Source of the DNA: Zhihengliuella halotolerans | Lineage (GTDB): Bacteria > Actinomycetota > Actinomycetes > Actinomycetales > Micrococcaceae | Reading direction: 5' to 3' | Length of the DNA stretch: 64,000 bases | NCBI RefSeq assembly: GCF_004217565.1 | Contig: NZ_SHLA01000001.1 | Coordinates: 2,914,001 to 2,978,000, forward strand | Program-made: the position numbers and the translations under genes | Notes under the pieces: generated by a model | The model's database searches: none | The model's input: the letters and a program-made list of their open reading frames with translations, nothing else | Told to the model about the DNA's origin: nothing | Shown: positions 16,351 through 30,929 of the stretch, one piece after another | Numbering within the stretch: the stretch's first letter is position 1 | How the letters are laid out: every line of letters begins with the position of its first letter

Positions 16351-17877
16351 CTACGGCTCGCGTGTCTCGGTGCGGTCCGGCACCTTGACGACGTCGATGC
16401 TCGACGTGATGGGGACCTCGCGGCCCTCGCGGTCGATCAGCTTGCCGTCTTCGAAGTGGTCGCCGTCGGCCAGGCACGCGACGTCCTGGTCGGTGACCGA
16501 GCGTTCAGTCCCGGCGACGAACACCGACTGGTTCTCGGTGTTGCCCTTCTTCACGTGGTTGAACATGATGTTCAGCAGGATCGCCGCGATGGCCGCCGAG
16601 CTGATGCCCGAGTGGAAGATCGTGGCGAACCAGGCCGGGAACTGGTCGTAGAAGTGCGGTGCCGCGATCGGGATCATGCCGAACCCGATCGAGGCGGCCA
16701 CGATGATCAGGTTCATGTTGCCCCGGTACTCGACCTTTGCCAGGGTGCGGATGCCGCTGGCAGCGACGGTCCCGAAGAGGACGACGCCGGCACCGCCGAG
16801 CACGGGCGTCGGCACGGCCGCCACGACCCGGCCGAGGATCGGCAGCAGCCCCAGGACCACGAGGATCAAGCCGCCCGCGCTGACCACGAAGCGGCTCTTG
16901 ATGCCGGTGATCGCGACGAGGCCAACGTTCTGGGCGAAGGCGCTCTGGGTGAAGGAGTTGAAGACCGGCGAGAGCGCGCTCGAGAGCATGTCGGCCCGAA
17001 GACCGTCGCCAATGCGCCTGGCGTCGACCTTGGACTTGGTGATCTCGCCGACGGCGATGATGTCGGCCGAGGTCTCCGTCAGCGTCACGAGGATGACGAT
17101 CAGCATGGAGATGATCGCCGCGATCTCGAAGGTCGGTGCGCCGAAGGCGAACGGCGTCGGGAAAGCCACGACGTCGCCCTCGCCGACCTTGGAGAAGTCC
17201 GCCTTGCCGACGGCCAGGGCGATGAGCGTGCCGACGACCATGGCCAGCAGGATGGAAAGGCGCGAGATCGCCGAGCTGCCGACCTTGCTCAGCAGCAGCA
17301 CGACGGCCATCGTCGCGGCCGCGAGGCCGATGTTCGAGACGCTTCCATAGTCTTCAGCCTGGGAATTGCCGCCCATGGCCCAGTTAGCGGCAACCGGCAT
17401 GAGCGTCAGGCCGATCGTCGTGATGACCGTTCCGGTCACGACCGGCGGGAAGAATCTGATGATCTTGGAGAACACCGGGGTGATGGCCAGACCGATGAGC
17501 GAGGCGACGATCACCGACCCGAAGACCGACTGGATCCCGCCGCCCCCGTGCACGATGGCGACCATCGTGGAGACGCCGGCAAAGGAGACACCCTGGACCA
17601 GCGGGAGCTGGGAACCGAAGAAGGGCACGCCGATCGTCTGCAGAATCGTGGCCAAACCACCCACGAAGAGGCAAGCCGCGATGAGCAGGCCGATGTCCTG
17701 GGAGTCCATACCCGCGGCGGCACCGATGATGAGCGGCGGCGCGATGATGCCGCCGTACATCGTGAGGACGTGCTGGAAGCCGTACGCGAACGTACTGCCC
17801 AGGGGCAGCCGCTCGTCCTCCGGTCGTGCGGGGCCGGAGCGGGAGGCCCCGGGCCGGGATTTCTTCTTGAGGATCAT
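16351..17877 (-). CDS. NCS2 xanthine/uracil permease, copy 1
   Basis: 508-residue NCS2 transporter with about 14 membrane segments. ANWAMGG, NVGLVAITGIKSRFVV and the GSQLPLVQG region are typical of bacterial xanthine/uric-acid permeases. It is close to the second permease (28364-29965) throughout, including PARPEDERLPLG at the N-terminus. Alignment with that paralogue and AGGAAG 7 bases upstream fix the start at ATG 17877; the longer frame to 17979 runs into the leader. A terminator hairpin and an AllR-like box lie upstream, so expression is probably controlled twice. Likely imports xanthine, urate or 8-oxopurine. Confidence 0.92.
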   Translation of the reverse strand: MILKKKSRPGASRSGPARPEDERLPLGSTFAYGFQHVLTMYGGIIAPPLIIGAAAGMDSQDIGLLIAACLFVGGLATILQTIGVPFFGSQLPLVQGVSFAGVSTMVAIVHGGGGIQSVFGSVIVASLIGLAITPVFSKIIRFFPPVVTGTVITTIGLTLMPVAANWAMGGNSQAEDYGSVSNIGLAAATMAVVLLLSKVGSSAISRLSILLAMVVGTLIALAVGKADFSKVGEGDVVAFPTPFAFGAPTFEIAAIISMLIVILVTLTETSADIIAVGEITKSKVDARRIGDGLRADMLSSALSPVFNSFTQSAFAQNVGLVAITGIKSRFVVSAGGLILVVLGLLPILGRVVAAVPTPVLGGAGVVLFGTVAASGIRTLAKVEYRGNMNLIIVAASIGFGMIPIAAPHFYDQFPAWFATIFHSGISSAAIAAILLNIMFNHVKKGNTENQSVFVAGTERSVTDQDVACLADGDHFEDGKLIDREGREVPITSSIDVVKVPDRTETREP

Positions 17878-17979: not shown

Positions 17980-18068
17980 AAAAAATGAGCCGACATCGAG
18001 TGATGTCAGCTCATTACGACCCTGCCTGCTGCTCCCAGGTTACGTGACCTGCGTCACGAGATGTAGCC
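17980..18068 (-). ncRNA. Candidate attenuator leader of permease copy 1
   Basis: The minus-strand leader contains a perfect intrinsic terminator: arms AATGAGC-x-GACATC (RNA 5' arm at 18002-18015, 3' arm at 17984-17997) with a 4-base loop, followed by six U residues (17980-17985). It lies about 100 bases before the permease start codon. Upstream, GGCUACAUC (18060-18068) can pair with the 3' arm of the terminator as an alternative, giving a plausible antiterminator. CGTGAC-GCAG-GTCACG forms a further hairpin between them. A possible -10 TAGGGT is at 18070-18075. I do not recognise a known riboswitch class. Confidence 0.6.
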
Positions 18069-18116
18069 CACCCTAGTCCGCTTTTCGGCCGAGCGGAAGG
18101 GTTTGTGAGAAATTTT

Positions 18117-18131
18117 TTCCGTCTCTCGGAA
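18117..18131. promoter_or_regulatory. AllR-like palindromic box upstream of permease 1
   Basis: TTCCGTCTCTCGGAA, a perfect TTCCR-N5-YGGAA match. It lies upstream of the candidate attenuator leader and about 240 bases from the permease start, between the permease and the 8-oxoguanine deaminase stop at 18190. Confidence 0.6.
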
Positions 18132-18189: not shown

Positions 18190-19548
18190 CTACCCGGCGA
18201 CGAGCCGACGGGCTGCCTCCGAGTGCCGCGCCGCGAGGGACTCGACGTCCAGGCCCGGCACGGCGCCGTCCACGACGCGCCACACCCCGCCGATCATCAC
18301 CCGGTCCGCTCGGTCCGCGCCGCAGAGCAGGAGCGCGGCGAGCGGATCGTGGCTGCCGGAGAAGCGCAGCCCGTCCAGGGTGAACATCGCGAGGTCGGCC
18401 TGCATCCCGGGGGCCAGCTGGCCGATGTCGGTGCGCCCGAGCACCGCCGCCGAACCGCGCGTCGCCCAGCCGAGCGCCCGCGTCACCGGCACGTCGGCCC
18501 CGTAGCGCAGCCGCTGCAGGTAGACGGCCTGCCGGGCCTCGAGGATCATGTTCGACGCGTCGTTCGAGGCCGATCCGTCCACGCCGAGCCCCACCGGCAC
18601 CCCGGCCGCCTCCAGGTCCAGCACCCGCGCCGTCCCGGAGGCGAGCCGCATGTTCGACGTCGGGCAGTGGGCCACCGCGGTCCCTGCCGCGCCTAGCCGG
18701 GCGATTTCGGCGTCGTCGAAGTGGATGCCGTGGCCGAGCCACGTGCGGTCCCCGAGCCAGCCGACGCTTTCCAGATAATCGACCGTGCGCAGGCCGTACT
18801 TCTCGCGGCAGAAGTCCTCCTCGTCGAGCGTCTCGGCGAGATGCGTGTGCAGCCGGACGTCGTGCCGCTCGGCGAGCGCCGCGCTCTCCTTCATGACCTC
18901 GCTCGTCACGGAGAACGGCGAGCACGGCGCCAGCGCGATCTGCACGACGGCGCCCGCGCCCGCCTCGTGATGTTCGCGGATGAGCCGCTCGCTGTCAGCG
19001 AGGACGACGTCGGCCCGCTGGACGGTCGAGCGCGGCGGCAGGCCGCCGTCGTCCTCGCCGAGGGTCATGGACCCGCGGGTGAGCGTCGCGCGCATCCCCA
19101 TGCGCCGGACCACGGACGCCTCGATGTCTACGGCGTCCTGCAGTCCGTCCGGGAAGAGGTAATGGTGGTCGGCGGCGGTCGTGCAGCCGGAGAGCAGCAG
19201 CTCGGCGAGCGCGACTTCGACGGCGAGCTCGAGCGCGTCCGGAGTCAGCCGCGCCCAGACGGGGTAGAGGTTCTGCAGCCACGGGAACAGGGGCACGTCG
19301 GCGGCAGGACCCCACGCGCGGGTGAGGGTCTGGTAGAAGTGGTGGTGCGTGTTGATCAGGCCCGGCAGCAGGACGTGGCGGCCGGCGTCGTAGACCTCCT
19401 CGCACGGCTGCTGTGGCCGTCCGCCGGCGGGGACGAGCTCGGCGATCCGGTCCCCACACACGACGACGCCGCCGCCGGCGTCGAGATCGTTGGCGGTGAA
19501 GACGGCGAGCGGGTTCTTGATCCAGAGCCTGGGCGCGGTGGTGTTCAC
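18190..19548 (-). CDS. 8-oxoguanine deaminase (amidohydrolase)
   Basis: 452-residue metal-dependent deaminase of the ATZ/TRZ-like branch. LINTHHHFYQTLTRAWG carries the first metal ligands, HTHLAET the next, then GHGIHFDD and GLGVDGSASNDASNM with the conserved Asp. The SASNDASN block and the length fit characterised 8-oxoguanine deaminases, which make urate and ammonia. This supplies uricase directly. GTG 19548 is chosen because AGGAGG lies 5 bases upstream. Other guanine- or cytosine-type deaminases of the same branch are possible. Confidence 0.85.
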   Translation of the reverse strand: MNTTAPRLWIKNPLAVFTANDLDAGGGVVVCGDRIAELVPAGGRPQQPCEEVYDAGRHVLLPGLINTHHHFYQTLTRAWGPAADVPLFPWLQNLYPVWARLTPDALELAVEVALAELLLSGCTTAADHHYLFPDGLQDAVDIEASVVRRMGMRATLTRGSMTLGEDDGGLPPRSTVQRADVVLADSERLIREHHEAGAGAVVQIALAPCSPFSVTSEVMKESAALAERHDVRLHTHLAETLDEEDFCREKYGLRTVDYLESVGWLGDRTWLGHGIHFDDAEIARLGAAGTAVAHCPTSNMRLASGTARVLDLEAAGVPVGLGVDGSASNDASNMILEARQAVYLQRLRYGADVPVTRALGWATRGSAAVLGRTDIGQLAPGMQADLAMFTLDGLRFSGSHDPLAALLLCGADRADRVMIGGVWRVVDGAVPGLDVESLAARHSEAARRLVAG

Positions 19549-19723
19549 GGGGTCCTCCTGAAGTGGTTCGACTAGTGACGAGCCAGCTCAGTTACACCCT
19601 GTCTGCTGATCCAGGGGCACCTCGGCGGTGCGGGCGGGCGCGGAGCCTCGGCGGCGCACCCGTTGCCCCTACAGTATTCACCGCGGAGCGCTCTGCCAAG
19701 ACCCGAATCGCGGAATGGCCGTT

Positions 19724-28363: not shown

Positions 28364-29965
28364 TCACGTGCTCCGGACGTGGTCCTGGCGCGCCGACTGC
28401 TCGGCATCCTGGAGCACCTCGCGGCGGTCGACGCCGTCGGGCAGCTCCGGCTCGATGCCCGCCTCGTCGCAGGCCTTGAGGTGTTGCGCCAATGCCACTG
28501 TGAACTGCTCGGCGGTCACCACGGGGACCTCGTCGCCCTTGGCGTCGATGAGCTTGCCCGCCTCGTAGTGGTCCCCCTCGCGCAGGCTGCGGATTTCCTC
28601 CGTCTTGACCATGCGCGGCGGGGCCGCGTGGAACACCGAGCCCCCCTTGGAGTTTCCGGCCTTGATCTCGTTGAAGACGATGTTCAGTGCCACGGCCATG
28701 ACGGCTGCCGAACTGATGCCCGAGTGGAAGATCGTCCCGACCCACGCCGGGAAGTGCTCGTAGAAGCCCTCCGCCACGACGGGGATCATGCCGAACGCGA
28801 TCGACGCGGAGACGATGATCAGGTTCTGCCCGCTGAACTGGACCTTGGAGAGCGTCCGGATCCCGGACGCGGCCACGGTCCCGAAGAGAACGATTCCGGC
28901 GCCGCCGAGCACGGGCAGCGGGATCGACGCGACCACGCGCCCCAGGACCGGCAGGAGGCCGAGGATCAGCAGGATCACGCCGCCGGCGGTGACGACGAAC
29001 CGGCTCTTCACACCGGTGATCGCCACGAGGCCGACGTTCTGGGCGAACGCGCTCTGCGTGAACGTGTTGAATACCGGCGCCGCGATCGAGGAGATCATAT
29101 CCGCCCGCAGCCCGTCGGCGATGCGCCGGGAGTCGACGCGGGTCTTGGCGATCTCCCCGACGGCCAGAATGTCCGCCGTCGTCTCCGTGAGGATGACCAG
29201 CACCACGATGACCATCGAGATGATGGCGCCGGCGTGGAACGTCGGCGGGCCGAAAGCGAACGGCTGCGGCAGGGCGAAGAACGCACCCTGCCCGACCTGC
29301 GAGAAGTCGGCCATGCCGATCCCCCACGCGACCAGCGTGCCGATGACGATGGCCAGCAGGATCGAAAGCCGCGAGATCGCCGCGTTGCCGACCTTGCTCA
29401 GCGCCAGCACGATGACCAGGGTCATCGCGGCGAGGCCGATGTTCTCCAGGCTCGCGTAGTCCGCGGCCGAAGAGTTCCCGCCCATGGCCCAGTTCGCGGC
29501 GACGGGTGTCAACGACAGCCCGATCATCGTGATGACCACGCCCGTCACGACCGGCGGGAAGAAGCGGACGATCCTGGCGAAGAACGGGGCGATCAGGAAC
29601 CCGATGACGGCGGCCGTCAACACCGCCCCGAACACGGCCTGGATTCCCCCTCCGTCCTGCGCGATCGCCACGAGCGTGGCGACGGACGCGAAGGACGTGC
29701 CCTGCACGAGCGGCAGCTGGCACCCGAAGAACGGGATGCCGACGGTTTGCAGGATCGTCGCGAGCCCGCCGACGAACAGGCAGCAGGCGACCAGGACCGC
29801 CTGCTCGCCGGGCCCGAGCCCGGCCGCGGCGCCGATGATCAGCGGCGGCGCGATGATGCCGCCGTACATCGTCAGGACGTGCTGGAGCCCGTAGGCGAAC
29901 GTCCGCCCCAGTGGCAGGCGCTCGTCCTCCGGCCGCGCGGGTCTACTCTTGCGTGCAACTGTCAC
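28364..29965 (-). CDS. NCS2 xanthine/uracil permease, copy 2
   Basis: 533-residue NCS2 transporter closely related to the copy at 16351-17877, with ANWAMGG, NVGLVAITGVKSRFVV and the conserved opening RPARPEDERLPLG. It has about 25 more C-terminal residues (charged, EPELPDGVDRREV). GTG 29965 has AGGAGG about 7 bases upstream. It starts 37 bases after the uricase stop, in the OHCU decarboxylase-HIU hydrolase-uricase operon, so urate or xanthine is the likely substrate. Unlike copy 1 it has no leader of its own. Confidence 0.93.
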   Translation of the reverse strand: MTVARKSRPARPEDERLPLGRTFAYGLQHVLTMYGGIIAPPLIIGAAAGLGPGEQAVLVACCLFVGGLATILQTVGIPFFGCQLPLVQGTSFASVATLVAIAQDGGGIQAVFGAVLTAAVIGFLIAPFFARIVRFFPPVVTGVVITMIGLSLTPVAANWAMGGNSSAADYASLENIGLAAMTLVIVLALSKVGNAAISRLSILLAIVIGTLVAWGIGMADFSQVGQGAFFALPQPFAFGPPTFHAGAIISMVIVVLVILTETTADILAVGEIAKTRVDSRRIADGLRADMISSIAAPVFNTFTQSAFAQNVGLVAITGVKSRFVVTAGGVILLILGLLPVLGRVVASIPLPVLGGAGIVLFGTVAASGIRTLSKVQFSGQNLIIVSASIAFGMIPVVAEGFYEHFPAWVGTIFHSGISSAAVMAVALNIVFNEIKAGNSKGGSVFHAAPPRMVKTEEIRSLREGDHYEAGKLIDAKGDEVPVVTAEQFTVALAQHLKACDEAGIEPELPDGVDRREVLQDAEQSARQDHVRST

Positions 29966-30002: not shown

Positions 30003-30929
30003 TTAGCAGAATCCGGAAGAGTTCTCCCAGATCGGGTGGGTGTCCGGAACGCCGTCGCGCTTGATCGCCGCCTCGATCAGGCCGTAGGGGCGGTCGGCAG
30101 CGAAGAAGACCTCGTTGGGGTTGTCCTGCCCGAACGGGGTCAGGTCGACGAGGAAGTGGTGGTTGTTGGGCAGGCTCATGCGGATCTCGTCGATCTCCGG
30201 GTGCGCCTCGAGCACGGCCTCGCCCATCTTGAACATCGTCTGCTGCAGCGCGAGCGAGTGGGTGTCGGCGAAGGCGCCCAGCAGCAGGCGGCGCACGGAG
30301 GCGTAGACGTCGTCGAACCGGATCCCGCCGCCGGCGACGGCGTCCGTGTTGTACCGCCAGCGGGCGGTGACGTCGGTCGCGAGGATACGGTCCGTGGTCT
30401 CCTTCAGGGTCGTGTAACGGTCCCGCGGGAAGCCGTGGAACTCGCTGCCCGTGGACTTCAGAACGGTCAGGCCCTCGATGCCAGCGACGATGTTGTTCTG
30501 ACCGTCGGCGATCTCCAGGATCGCGGTGCGGATCTCGGACTTGTTCGCGGAGAACGCGTGGTCGTGGTCCTCGATCCGGTCCCAGAAGAACTGCTGCCCG
30601 GCCCAGCGGCCGCCCGTGACCCACTCGAACTCGGTCGTGAAGTGGTCGCCGAGGCGCGTGAGGAAACCCTCGAGGGTGCCCACGCCGTCGCGGGCGAACG
30701 CGTAGACCGTGTTCTTCTGGGTGTCCGTGGCCACGACGGCGGCGTTGTCGCCCTCCGTGTGCGCGGCGGTGAAATCGCCGTGCAGCTGGGACGTGATGTT
30801 CAGGTCCTCGATCTGGTGGCGCGCGGTGTCGCGGGTGATCTTGACGAGTCGGACCTCGGCCTTGCCGTACTGGTTGCGCCCCAGCACGATCTTGGTGCCG
30901 GTGGAGGTTTCGGATGCGGTCAGAGTCAT
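30003..30929 (-). CDS. uox: Urate oxidase (uricase)
   Basis: 308-residue cofactor-free uricase, close to the length of Arthrobacter uricases. IVLGRNQYGKAEVRLVKI carries the catalytic Lys, and VVATDTQKNTVYAFA the catalytic Thr and substrate loop. EFHGFPRDRYTTL and MSLPNNHHFLVDL complete the site. It oxidises urate to 5-hydroxyisourate and H2O2. No peroxisomal or signal sequence is seen. ATG 30929 has GAGGAAG upstream and lies only 4 bases after the HIU hydrolase stop, so the two are coupled. Confidence 0.97.
   Translation of the reverse strand: MTLTASETSTGTKIVLGRNQYGKAEVRLVKITRDTARHQIEDLNITSQLHGDFTAAHTEGDNAAVVATDTQKNTVYAFARDGVGTLEGFLTRLGDHFTTEFEWVTGGRWAGQQFFWDRIEDHDHAFSANKSEIRTAILEIADGQNNIVAGIEGLTVLKSTGSEFHGFPRDRYTTLKETTDRILATDVTARWRYNTDAVAGGGIRFDDVYASVRRLLLGAFADTHSLALQQTMFKMGEAVLEAHPEIDEIRMSLPNNHHFLVDLTPFGQDNPNEVFFAADRPYGLIEAAIKRDGVPDTHPIWENSSGFC

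Follow-up and report, generated by a model that had tools for sequence, protein, structure and literature searches.

A conserved pseudoknot RNA ahead of purine-oxidation genes is a likely riboswitch for oxidised purines

Introduction

What decides whether RNA polymerase reads through the leader of the xanthine permease gene in Zhihengliuella halotolerans? The gene encodes an NCS2 permease, PbuX (16351-17877, minus strand; TIGR03173, 505.8 bits against a cut-off of 414; PF00860), and lies in a 64,000-nucleotide stretch of contig NZ_SHLA01000001.1, hereafter the window. Positions 10795-30929 form a purine catabolic cluster with genes for glyoxylate carboligase, tartronate semialdehyde reductase, hydroxypyruvate isomerase, xanthine permease, 8-oxoguanine deaminase, ureidoglycine aminohydrolase, malate synthase, malic enzyme, a second NCS2 permease and uricase. 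A preliminary description of this DNA had read the permease leader as a transcription attenuator and had raised the possibility of a new purine-responsive RNA. Our analysis points to a leader that is likely an ON riboswitch of an undescribed class for oxidised purines.

A terminator and a pseudoknot compete in the permease leader

The permease leader has both the GC-containing stem and the U tract of an intrinsic terminator. The hairpin (17984-18015, minus strand) has 14 bp, AAUGAGCUGACAUC/GAUGUCGGCUCAUU, with a 4-nt loop ACUC; the U tract UUUUUU (17980-17985) follows it directly, 103 nt upstream of the permease ATG at 17877, in agreement with the perfect terminator and six U residues previously placed about 100 bases before the start. 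Between terminator and gene, a Shine-Dalgarno-like AGGAAGA is found at 17889-17883 (minus). Among homologues the terminator stem covaries, with two-sided changes in four pairs and a covariation score reached by 0 of 500 shuffles. Folding of the leader (84-94 nt) gave z = -3.9 and -4.4 against dinucleotide shuffles, none of 200 being as good, and its G+C content is 54%, compared with a window average of 69%.

Upstream of the terminator lies a core of constant order: a variable hairpin, P1, then a helix, P2 (CCUG/CAGG), around GAKCAGCRGR, then a conserved UGAGCUG. In the permease leader, where all of these are on the minus strand, folding gives P1 as CGUGAC-GCAG-GUCACG (18043-18058), and homologous hairpins of unrelated sequence occupy the same place in other copies. 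The P2 strands CCUG (18036-18039) and CAGG (18021-18024) pair 18039-18036 with 18024-18021. They enclose an extra nucleotide at 18035, recognised by comparing copies, and the loop GAGCAGCAGG (18034-18025), in which CAGC (18028-18031) can pair with the GCUG (18010-18007) of UGAGCUG (18007-18013). Aligned homologues share ACCUG-N-GAGCAGCAGG-CAGGG-N-AAUGAGCUGGC, followed by the terminator. As UGAGCUG is kept even in copies that have no terminator, it is part of the aptamer in its own right. The same GCUG is both the 3' strand of the pseudoknot and the middle of the terminator 5' arm, and because both structures need it they are mutually exclusive.

The attenuator logic is therefore sound, a real terminator being set against a conserved pseudoknot, while the competing strand has to be reassigned. 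The preliminary description had given this role to GGCUACAUC (18068-18060). The complementarity of this segment to the terminator 3' arm is limited to ACAUC (5 nt), its place is that of the predicted transcription start, and homologues lack it. The strand that does compete is CAGC at 18031-18028.

The putative -10 element TAGGGT (18070-18075, minus) stands just ahead of GGCUACAUC, and TANNNT hexamers are similarly spaced from P1 in homologues; TTCCGC at 18098-18093 (minus) is a possible weak -35. Because a strict sigma-70 scan gave no promoter for the permease leader, we only infer this -10 element, and with it a transcription start near 18062. The outcome of the scan would also suit a different arrangement, in which the hairpin is a plain terminator of the upstream deaminase gene, whose stop codon lies about 175 nt before it on the same strand, and the permease promoter lies downstream of the hairpin. 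However, the whole element, with a TANNNT box ahead of P1, precedes uricase in other genera, the core ahead of the terminator is strongly conserved whereas the spacer behind it is not, and UGAGCUG persists in copies without a terminator. We consider this arrangement highly improbable.

Compensatory changes support the core structure

For the structural test, loci were retrieved by their deaminase protein and the upstream DNA was inspected, a procedure that avoids picking sequences by the helices under test. The sequence of P1 is unrelated between copies (locus L047, for example, has GGGCAG/CUGCCC). Taken as a hairpin 0-3 nt before P2, it has a mean stem score of 10.2 in 171 copies, compared with 6.3 in shuffles, and a score of at least 10 in 66% of these copies but in only 14% of shuffles. 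P2 is complementary in 165 of 165 unique contexts chosen without a P2 requirement. Three of its four pairs show two-sided compensatory changes: in about 30 loci, nearly all from one Micrococcales family, CCUG/CAGG has become GGCG/CGCC with the loop kept (CGGCG-GAGCAGCAGA-CGCCG). The pseudoknot changes likewise in nine loci of other Micrococcales, where CCUG-GAUCGGCAGA-CAGG is followed by UGAGCCG and CAGC:GCUG is replaced by CGGC:GCCG; one G-U variant was found besides.

An alignment of 34 distinct cores (P2 plus pseudoknot), pre-filtered for P2 complementarity and kept in register by an N inserted in the loop of short-loop sequences, has 272 of 272 cells paired and four pairs with two-sided changes. 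None of 500 shuffles scored as high for covariation, and slid controls were 14-51% paired. The covariation goes back to few independent events, about one each for P2 and the pseudoknot, in about two lineages. At the level of sequence comparison, the compensatory changes show hairpin P1 and, after it, a P2 hairpin closed by CAGC:GCUG into an H-type pseudoknot. The element thus has general features of a riboswitch, being a structured RNA that is conserved in the leaders of mRNAs and whose helices covary, and it is almost certainly a real, widespread and covariation-supported cis-regulatory RNA. The preliminary description had staked its reading on conservation of the leader in relatives and had proposed covariation across leaders of homologous NCS2 genes as a check; the leader proved to be conserved, with compensatory changes in P2, the pseudoknot and the terminator stem.

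These changes also bear on whether the conserved stretch acts as DNA. In Micrococcaceae type 1 copies (defined below), CGTGACGCAGGTCACG matches GTGA-N6-TCAC, as it would if P1 were a CRP/GlxR-like operator and the conserved DNA a transcription-factor site. Elsewhere, though, P1 is swapped for unrelated hairpins, and P2, the pseudoknot and the terminator covary as RNA, which leaves very little room for a DNA site as the whole explanation. An operator at P1 could be an addition to the RNA mechanism, not a replacement for it.

A second copy and two types of core

The leader had been taken as peculiar to the first permease. In fact the same RNA precedes the adjacent 8-oxoguanine deaminase gene, and elsewhere uricase and other genes. 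This second copy (19631-19584), missed in the preliminary description, was matched by a second covariance model at 19616-19577 (minus), 1.6 kb from the copy in the permease leader. Its P1 hairpin, GCACC-GCCGA-GGUGC (19617-19631, minus), differs in sequence from that of the permease leader. The core that follows, CCUG-GAUCAGCAGA-CAGG-GUGUAAC-UGAGCUG (19584-19615, minus), belongs to type 2; P2 pairs 19615-19612 with 19601-19598, the pseudoknot pairs CAGC at 19608-19605 with GCUG at 19587-19584, and the extended 3' segment after GUGUAAC reads UGAGCUGGC. No terminator was found downstream of this core. The deaminase gene behind it (18190-19548, minus; NF006055 (PRK08203), 680 bits against a cut-off of 532) starts with GTG at 19548, preceded by the Shine-Dalgarno sequence AGGAGG at 19559-19554 (minus).

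When the whole genome was searched with the core-only model R3, exactly two copies were recovered (E = 2.9e-9 and 5.2e-8), before adjacent genes of the same pathway. The same search placed no core at the window's uricase (30003-30929) or at the second NCS2 permease (28364-29965, minus; PF00860), which had rightly been described as having no such leader.

Across genomes, 210 unique copies precede 157 deaminase genes, 36 uricase genes, six small ORFs, five pbuX genes, two genes for BMP-type ABC lipoproteins and one xanthine dehydrogenase gene, with three at contig ends; 201 of the 210 thus stand before deaminase, uricase, pbuX, xdh or a BMP-type transporter. A single nucleotide after CCUG divides them. 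It is present in 50 of 50 copies before other genes (type 1, like the permease leader) and in 0 of 157 copies before deaminase (type 2), a split whose statistical weight is reduced by shared descent within each gene group. Both types occur together at several loci, the window included, and this side-by-side occurrence suggests different ligands, so that types 1 and 2 may represent two ligand subtypes.

The type 1 copies with a small ORF behind them (L044, L046, L057, L080, L175, L186) are from Arthrobacter/Pseudarthrobacter, and most are without a terminator. The ORF has about 85-115 aa and the motif ...RHPR..VG..V.FAEGT..GTGVVDA...W.W.DEG.G; it gave no confident Pfam or NCBIfam match.

Comparison of the two types also speaks to ribosome-mediated attenuation. 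Attenuators with terminators are often of the leader-peptide kind, and the permease leader could be read as one. The start codon is not shared between types, however, AUGAGC in type 1 corresponding to CUGAGC in type 2, and copies differ by one to three bases in their joining segment, which breaks the frame; neither start codon nor frame of a translated leader ORF is conserved across copies. Of all the alternatives, this one we credit least.

The RNA is spread patchily and travels with its gene

When the DNA of 39 relatives was searched, the leader turned up at 85-93% identity over 80-110 nt in congeners and in two other genera; in these other genera it precedes uricase and not the permease. 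The first covariance model matched in 44 of 298 genomes of the family, a few of these being weak false hits; the weak matches at L055, L056, L059-L063 and L072-L077 proved to be unrelated terminator-like hairpins. Scanning with a degenerate pattern gave at least 120 loci, where chance alone would give about 0.2 across the collection as a whole. Among the matches listed are Micrococcales (Arthrobacter and relatives, Microbacterium, Agromyces, Occultella, Kocuria) and Gammaproteobacteria (Pseudomonas, Stutzerimonas, Alteromonadaceae, Marinomonas, Serratia, Rahnella, Rouxiella, Citrobacter, Buttiauxella), and most of the pattern loci listed have 8-oxoguanine deaminase directly downstream. At E <= 0.001 the core is detected in 88 of 199 Pseudomonadaceae genomes (86-88/199, as two of the matches are weak). 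The spread is patchy, since an even draw over Gammaproteobacteria gave only one strong match besides the seed; viral contigs gave no core match. Pantoea plasmid pPAT9B01 (NC_014838.1, L323) carries the RNA at 1420-1495 together with an 8-oxoguanine deaminase gene, which fits joint horizontal transfer of gene and switch.

Could the conserved RNA, instead of being a metabolite aptamer, be bound by a protein acting in trans that regulates purine catabolism through antitermination or at translation? A hairpin and knot with an invariant loop could serve as such a binding site, and P1 hardly varies in sequence among Arthrobacter type 1 copies. But P1 is otherwise sequence-free, the conserved letters are those of loops and joining segments, as in aptamers, and one core serves genes with different products. 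The motif moreover travels with the gene that it controls, over two phyla and on a plasmid, with no need for a partner protein, and this patchy joint spread fits a self-contained switch. We consider a protein site unlikely and the cis-regulatory RNA very probably a metabolite riboswitch. Gene context, which is the basis for the ligand, makes an oxidised purine a probable one.

Expression platforms and a proposed mechanism

The core overlaps an expression platform in both arrangements that we found. Most type 1 copies have a terminator. Many gammaproteobacterial type 2 copies have a ribosome-binding-site stem in its place: in many terminator-free gammaproteobacterial copies GCUGGCU has a possible pairing partner, AGCCGGC, at the ribosome-binding site, and in Enterobacterales both sides of this stem are changed, GCUGACU facing AGUCAG or AGUUAG. 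Some Micrococcaceae deaminase (type 2) copies (L050-L054) have a terminator, and the platform type is thus not tied to the aptamer type. No clear platform was seen in the second copy of the window or in the Arthrobacter type 2 copies; in minimum-free-energy (MFE) folding of the former, CUGAG pairs with UUCAG before the ribosome-binding site.

MFE folding, which leaves out the knot, strongly favours the terminator, so that switching must be kinetic. We propose that P1 and P2 would form first in the nascent RNA, after which CAGC in the P2 loop would pair forward with GCUG to give the H-type pseudoknot. An oxidised purine would bind and stabilise the knot; with the knot held, GCUG would be kept from the terminator stem and RNA polymerase would read into the permease gene. 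When no ligand is bound, the 14-bp terminator would win and transcription would end about 80 nt into the leader. In terminator-free copies the GCUGGC strand would mask the ribosome-binding site, and ligand would turn translation on. Both platforms lead to the same predicted logic, in which the gene is on when the knot is formed. We infer both direct ligand binding by the leader RNA and the ON direction; switching on in the presence of substrate makes physiological sense for uricase and xanthine uptake.

Gene context would make urate or xanthine the most likely ligand of type 1, which precedes uricase, xanthine permease and xanthine dehydrogenase, and 8-oxoguanine that of type 2, which precedes 8-oxoguanine deaminase. 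The exact pairing of type 1 with urate (or xanthine) and of type 2 with 8-oxoguanine is a tentative assignment. Equally provisional is the fuller proposal of a new H-type pseudoknot aptamer class with two ligand subtypes split by one loop nucleotide, in which 8-oxoguanine might turn on the deaminase (type 2) and urate might turn on uricase and purine uptake (type 1).

Relation to known RNAs

The preliminary description had seen no known riboswitch core, and our searches concur. No Rfam family reached its gathering score in the window or in 14 homologue loci, and at E <= 10 nothing credible appeared in both window leaders and one Pseudomonas leader; SAM-Chlorobi and MIR171_2 matched the permease leader at E 3.7 and 6.9, far under the gathering score. 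The xanthine-I (NMT1) covariance model gave no match in the window, the 14 homologue loci or, at E <= 10, the three leaders, and purine-family models gave none in these sequences at any threshold used. No description of the motif was found in the literature searched, discovery surveys and reviews included, in which subscription journals were thinly covered and an earlier publication is possible. The small pseudoknot RNA family, present in numerous Pseudomonas as well as in soil actinobacteria, is apparently undescribed.

Small H-type pseudoknot riboswitches of the preQ1-I, guanidine-III and SAM-II type have a compact knot whose 3' strand doubles as expression platform. The present RNA shares this design but has other conserved sequence and another gene set, and no Rfam match. 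In ANTAR and BglG-type antiterminator RNAs, proteins recognise a hairpin. Antitermination before catabolic genes is common to them and to the present RNA, which differs in its covarying pseudoknot and sequence-free P1.

Closer in subject is the xanthine-I riboswitch (NMT1 motif), which binds xanthine and uric acid and is a translational OFF switch confined to Proteobacteria, a two-stem RNA with conserved bulged internal junctions (PMC7373994). Both RNAs accompany purine-oxidation genes, including 8-oxoguanine/guanine deaminase-like amidohydrolases (PMC7373994). In contrast to xanthine-I, the present RNA has a hairpin and an H-type pseudoknot with other conserved letters and no two-stem junction, occurs in Actinomycetota and Gammaproteobacteria, is predicted to be ON and in part uses terminators. 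The guanine-I riboswitch and its xanthine-II variant are three-way junctions with a loop-loop contact (PMC9295807), as is, in the part of the literature available to us, the 8-oxoguanine riboswitch, a guanine-I variant (paper cited in PMC11625349). Their likely ligand range overlaps with that proposed here (xanthine, 8-oxoguanine), but the present RNA matches no purine model and is without a three-way junction. The suggestion of a new purine-responsive RNA is thus well supported by a conserved core, covarying helices, purine-oxidation genes and the lack of an Rfam match.

If the proposal is true, the RNA would be a widespread addition to purine-sensing riboswitches. Its fold resembles neither that of NMT1 nor that of the guanine class, and its ON logic for oxidised purines would be the opposite of that of xanthine-I. 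It occurs in over 40% of the sampled Pseudomonadaceae genomes, yet has no Rfam model. We know of no other riboswitch dedicated to urate; the present RNA would be the first, and would add a second, unrelated fold for 8-oxoguanine. 8-Oxoguanine is a product of oxidative damage, and Arthrobacter uricase is a source of therapeutic enzyme. A natural urate or 8-oxoguanine ON switch could be a useful sensor (gout, oxidative damage), and the switch may account for the induction of Arthrobacter uricase. Deaminase and non-deaminase copies differ by one loop nucleotide and often occur next to each other in a genome, so that ligand specificity can be tested directly.

Further observations on related leaders

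Locus L047 and type 1 loci including L009, L012 and L016 have a palindrome of CRP/GlxR type, GTGATGTACA(C/T)CAC, some 40 nt ahead of P1, which is roughly the -40 region of the uricase promoters. An incomplete second core (CCCTGGATCAGCAGCGTGCC), possibly a tandem or decayed duplicate, stands immediately before a full type 2 core at locus L176 (about 500-560). In Alteromonadales, many genes for 8-oxoguanine deaminase have other conserved leaders in place of the core, such as CCCTGAAATGGCTGAGATGGCTAAGGA or GGCTCCTACATCCGGG...AATCCTGACAATTAGGAG (L258-L263, L267; L269, L273-L276; L261, L264, L265; L280-L285), which are possibly other regulatory RNAs.
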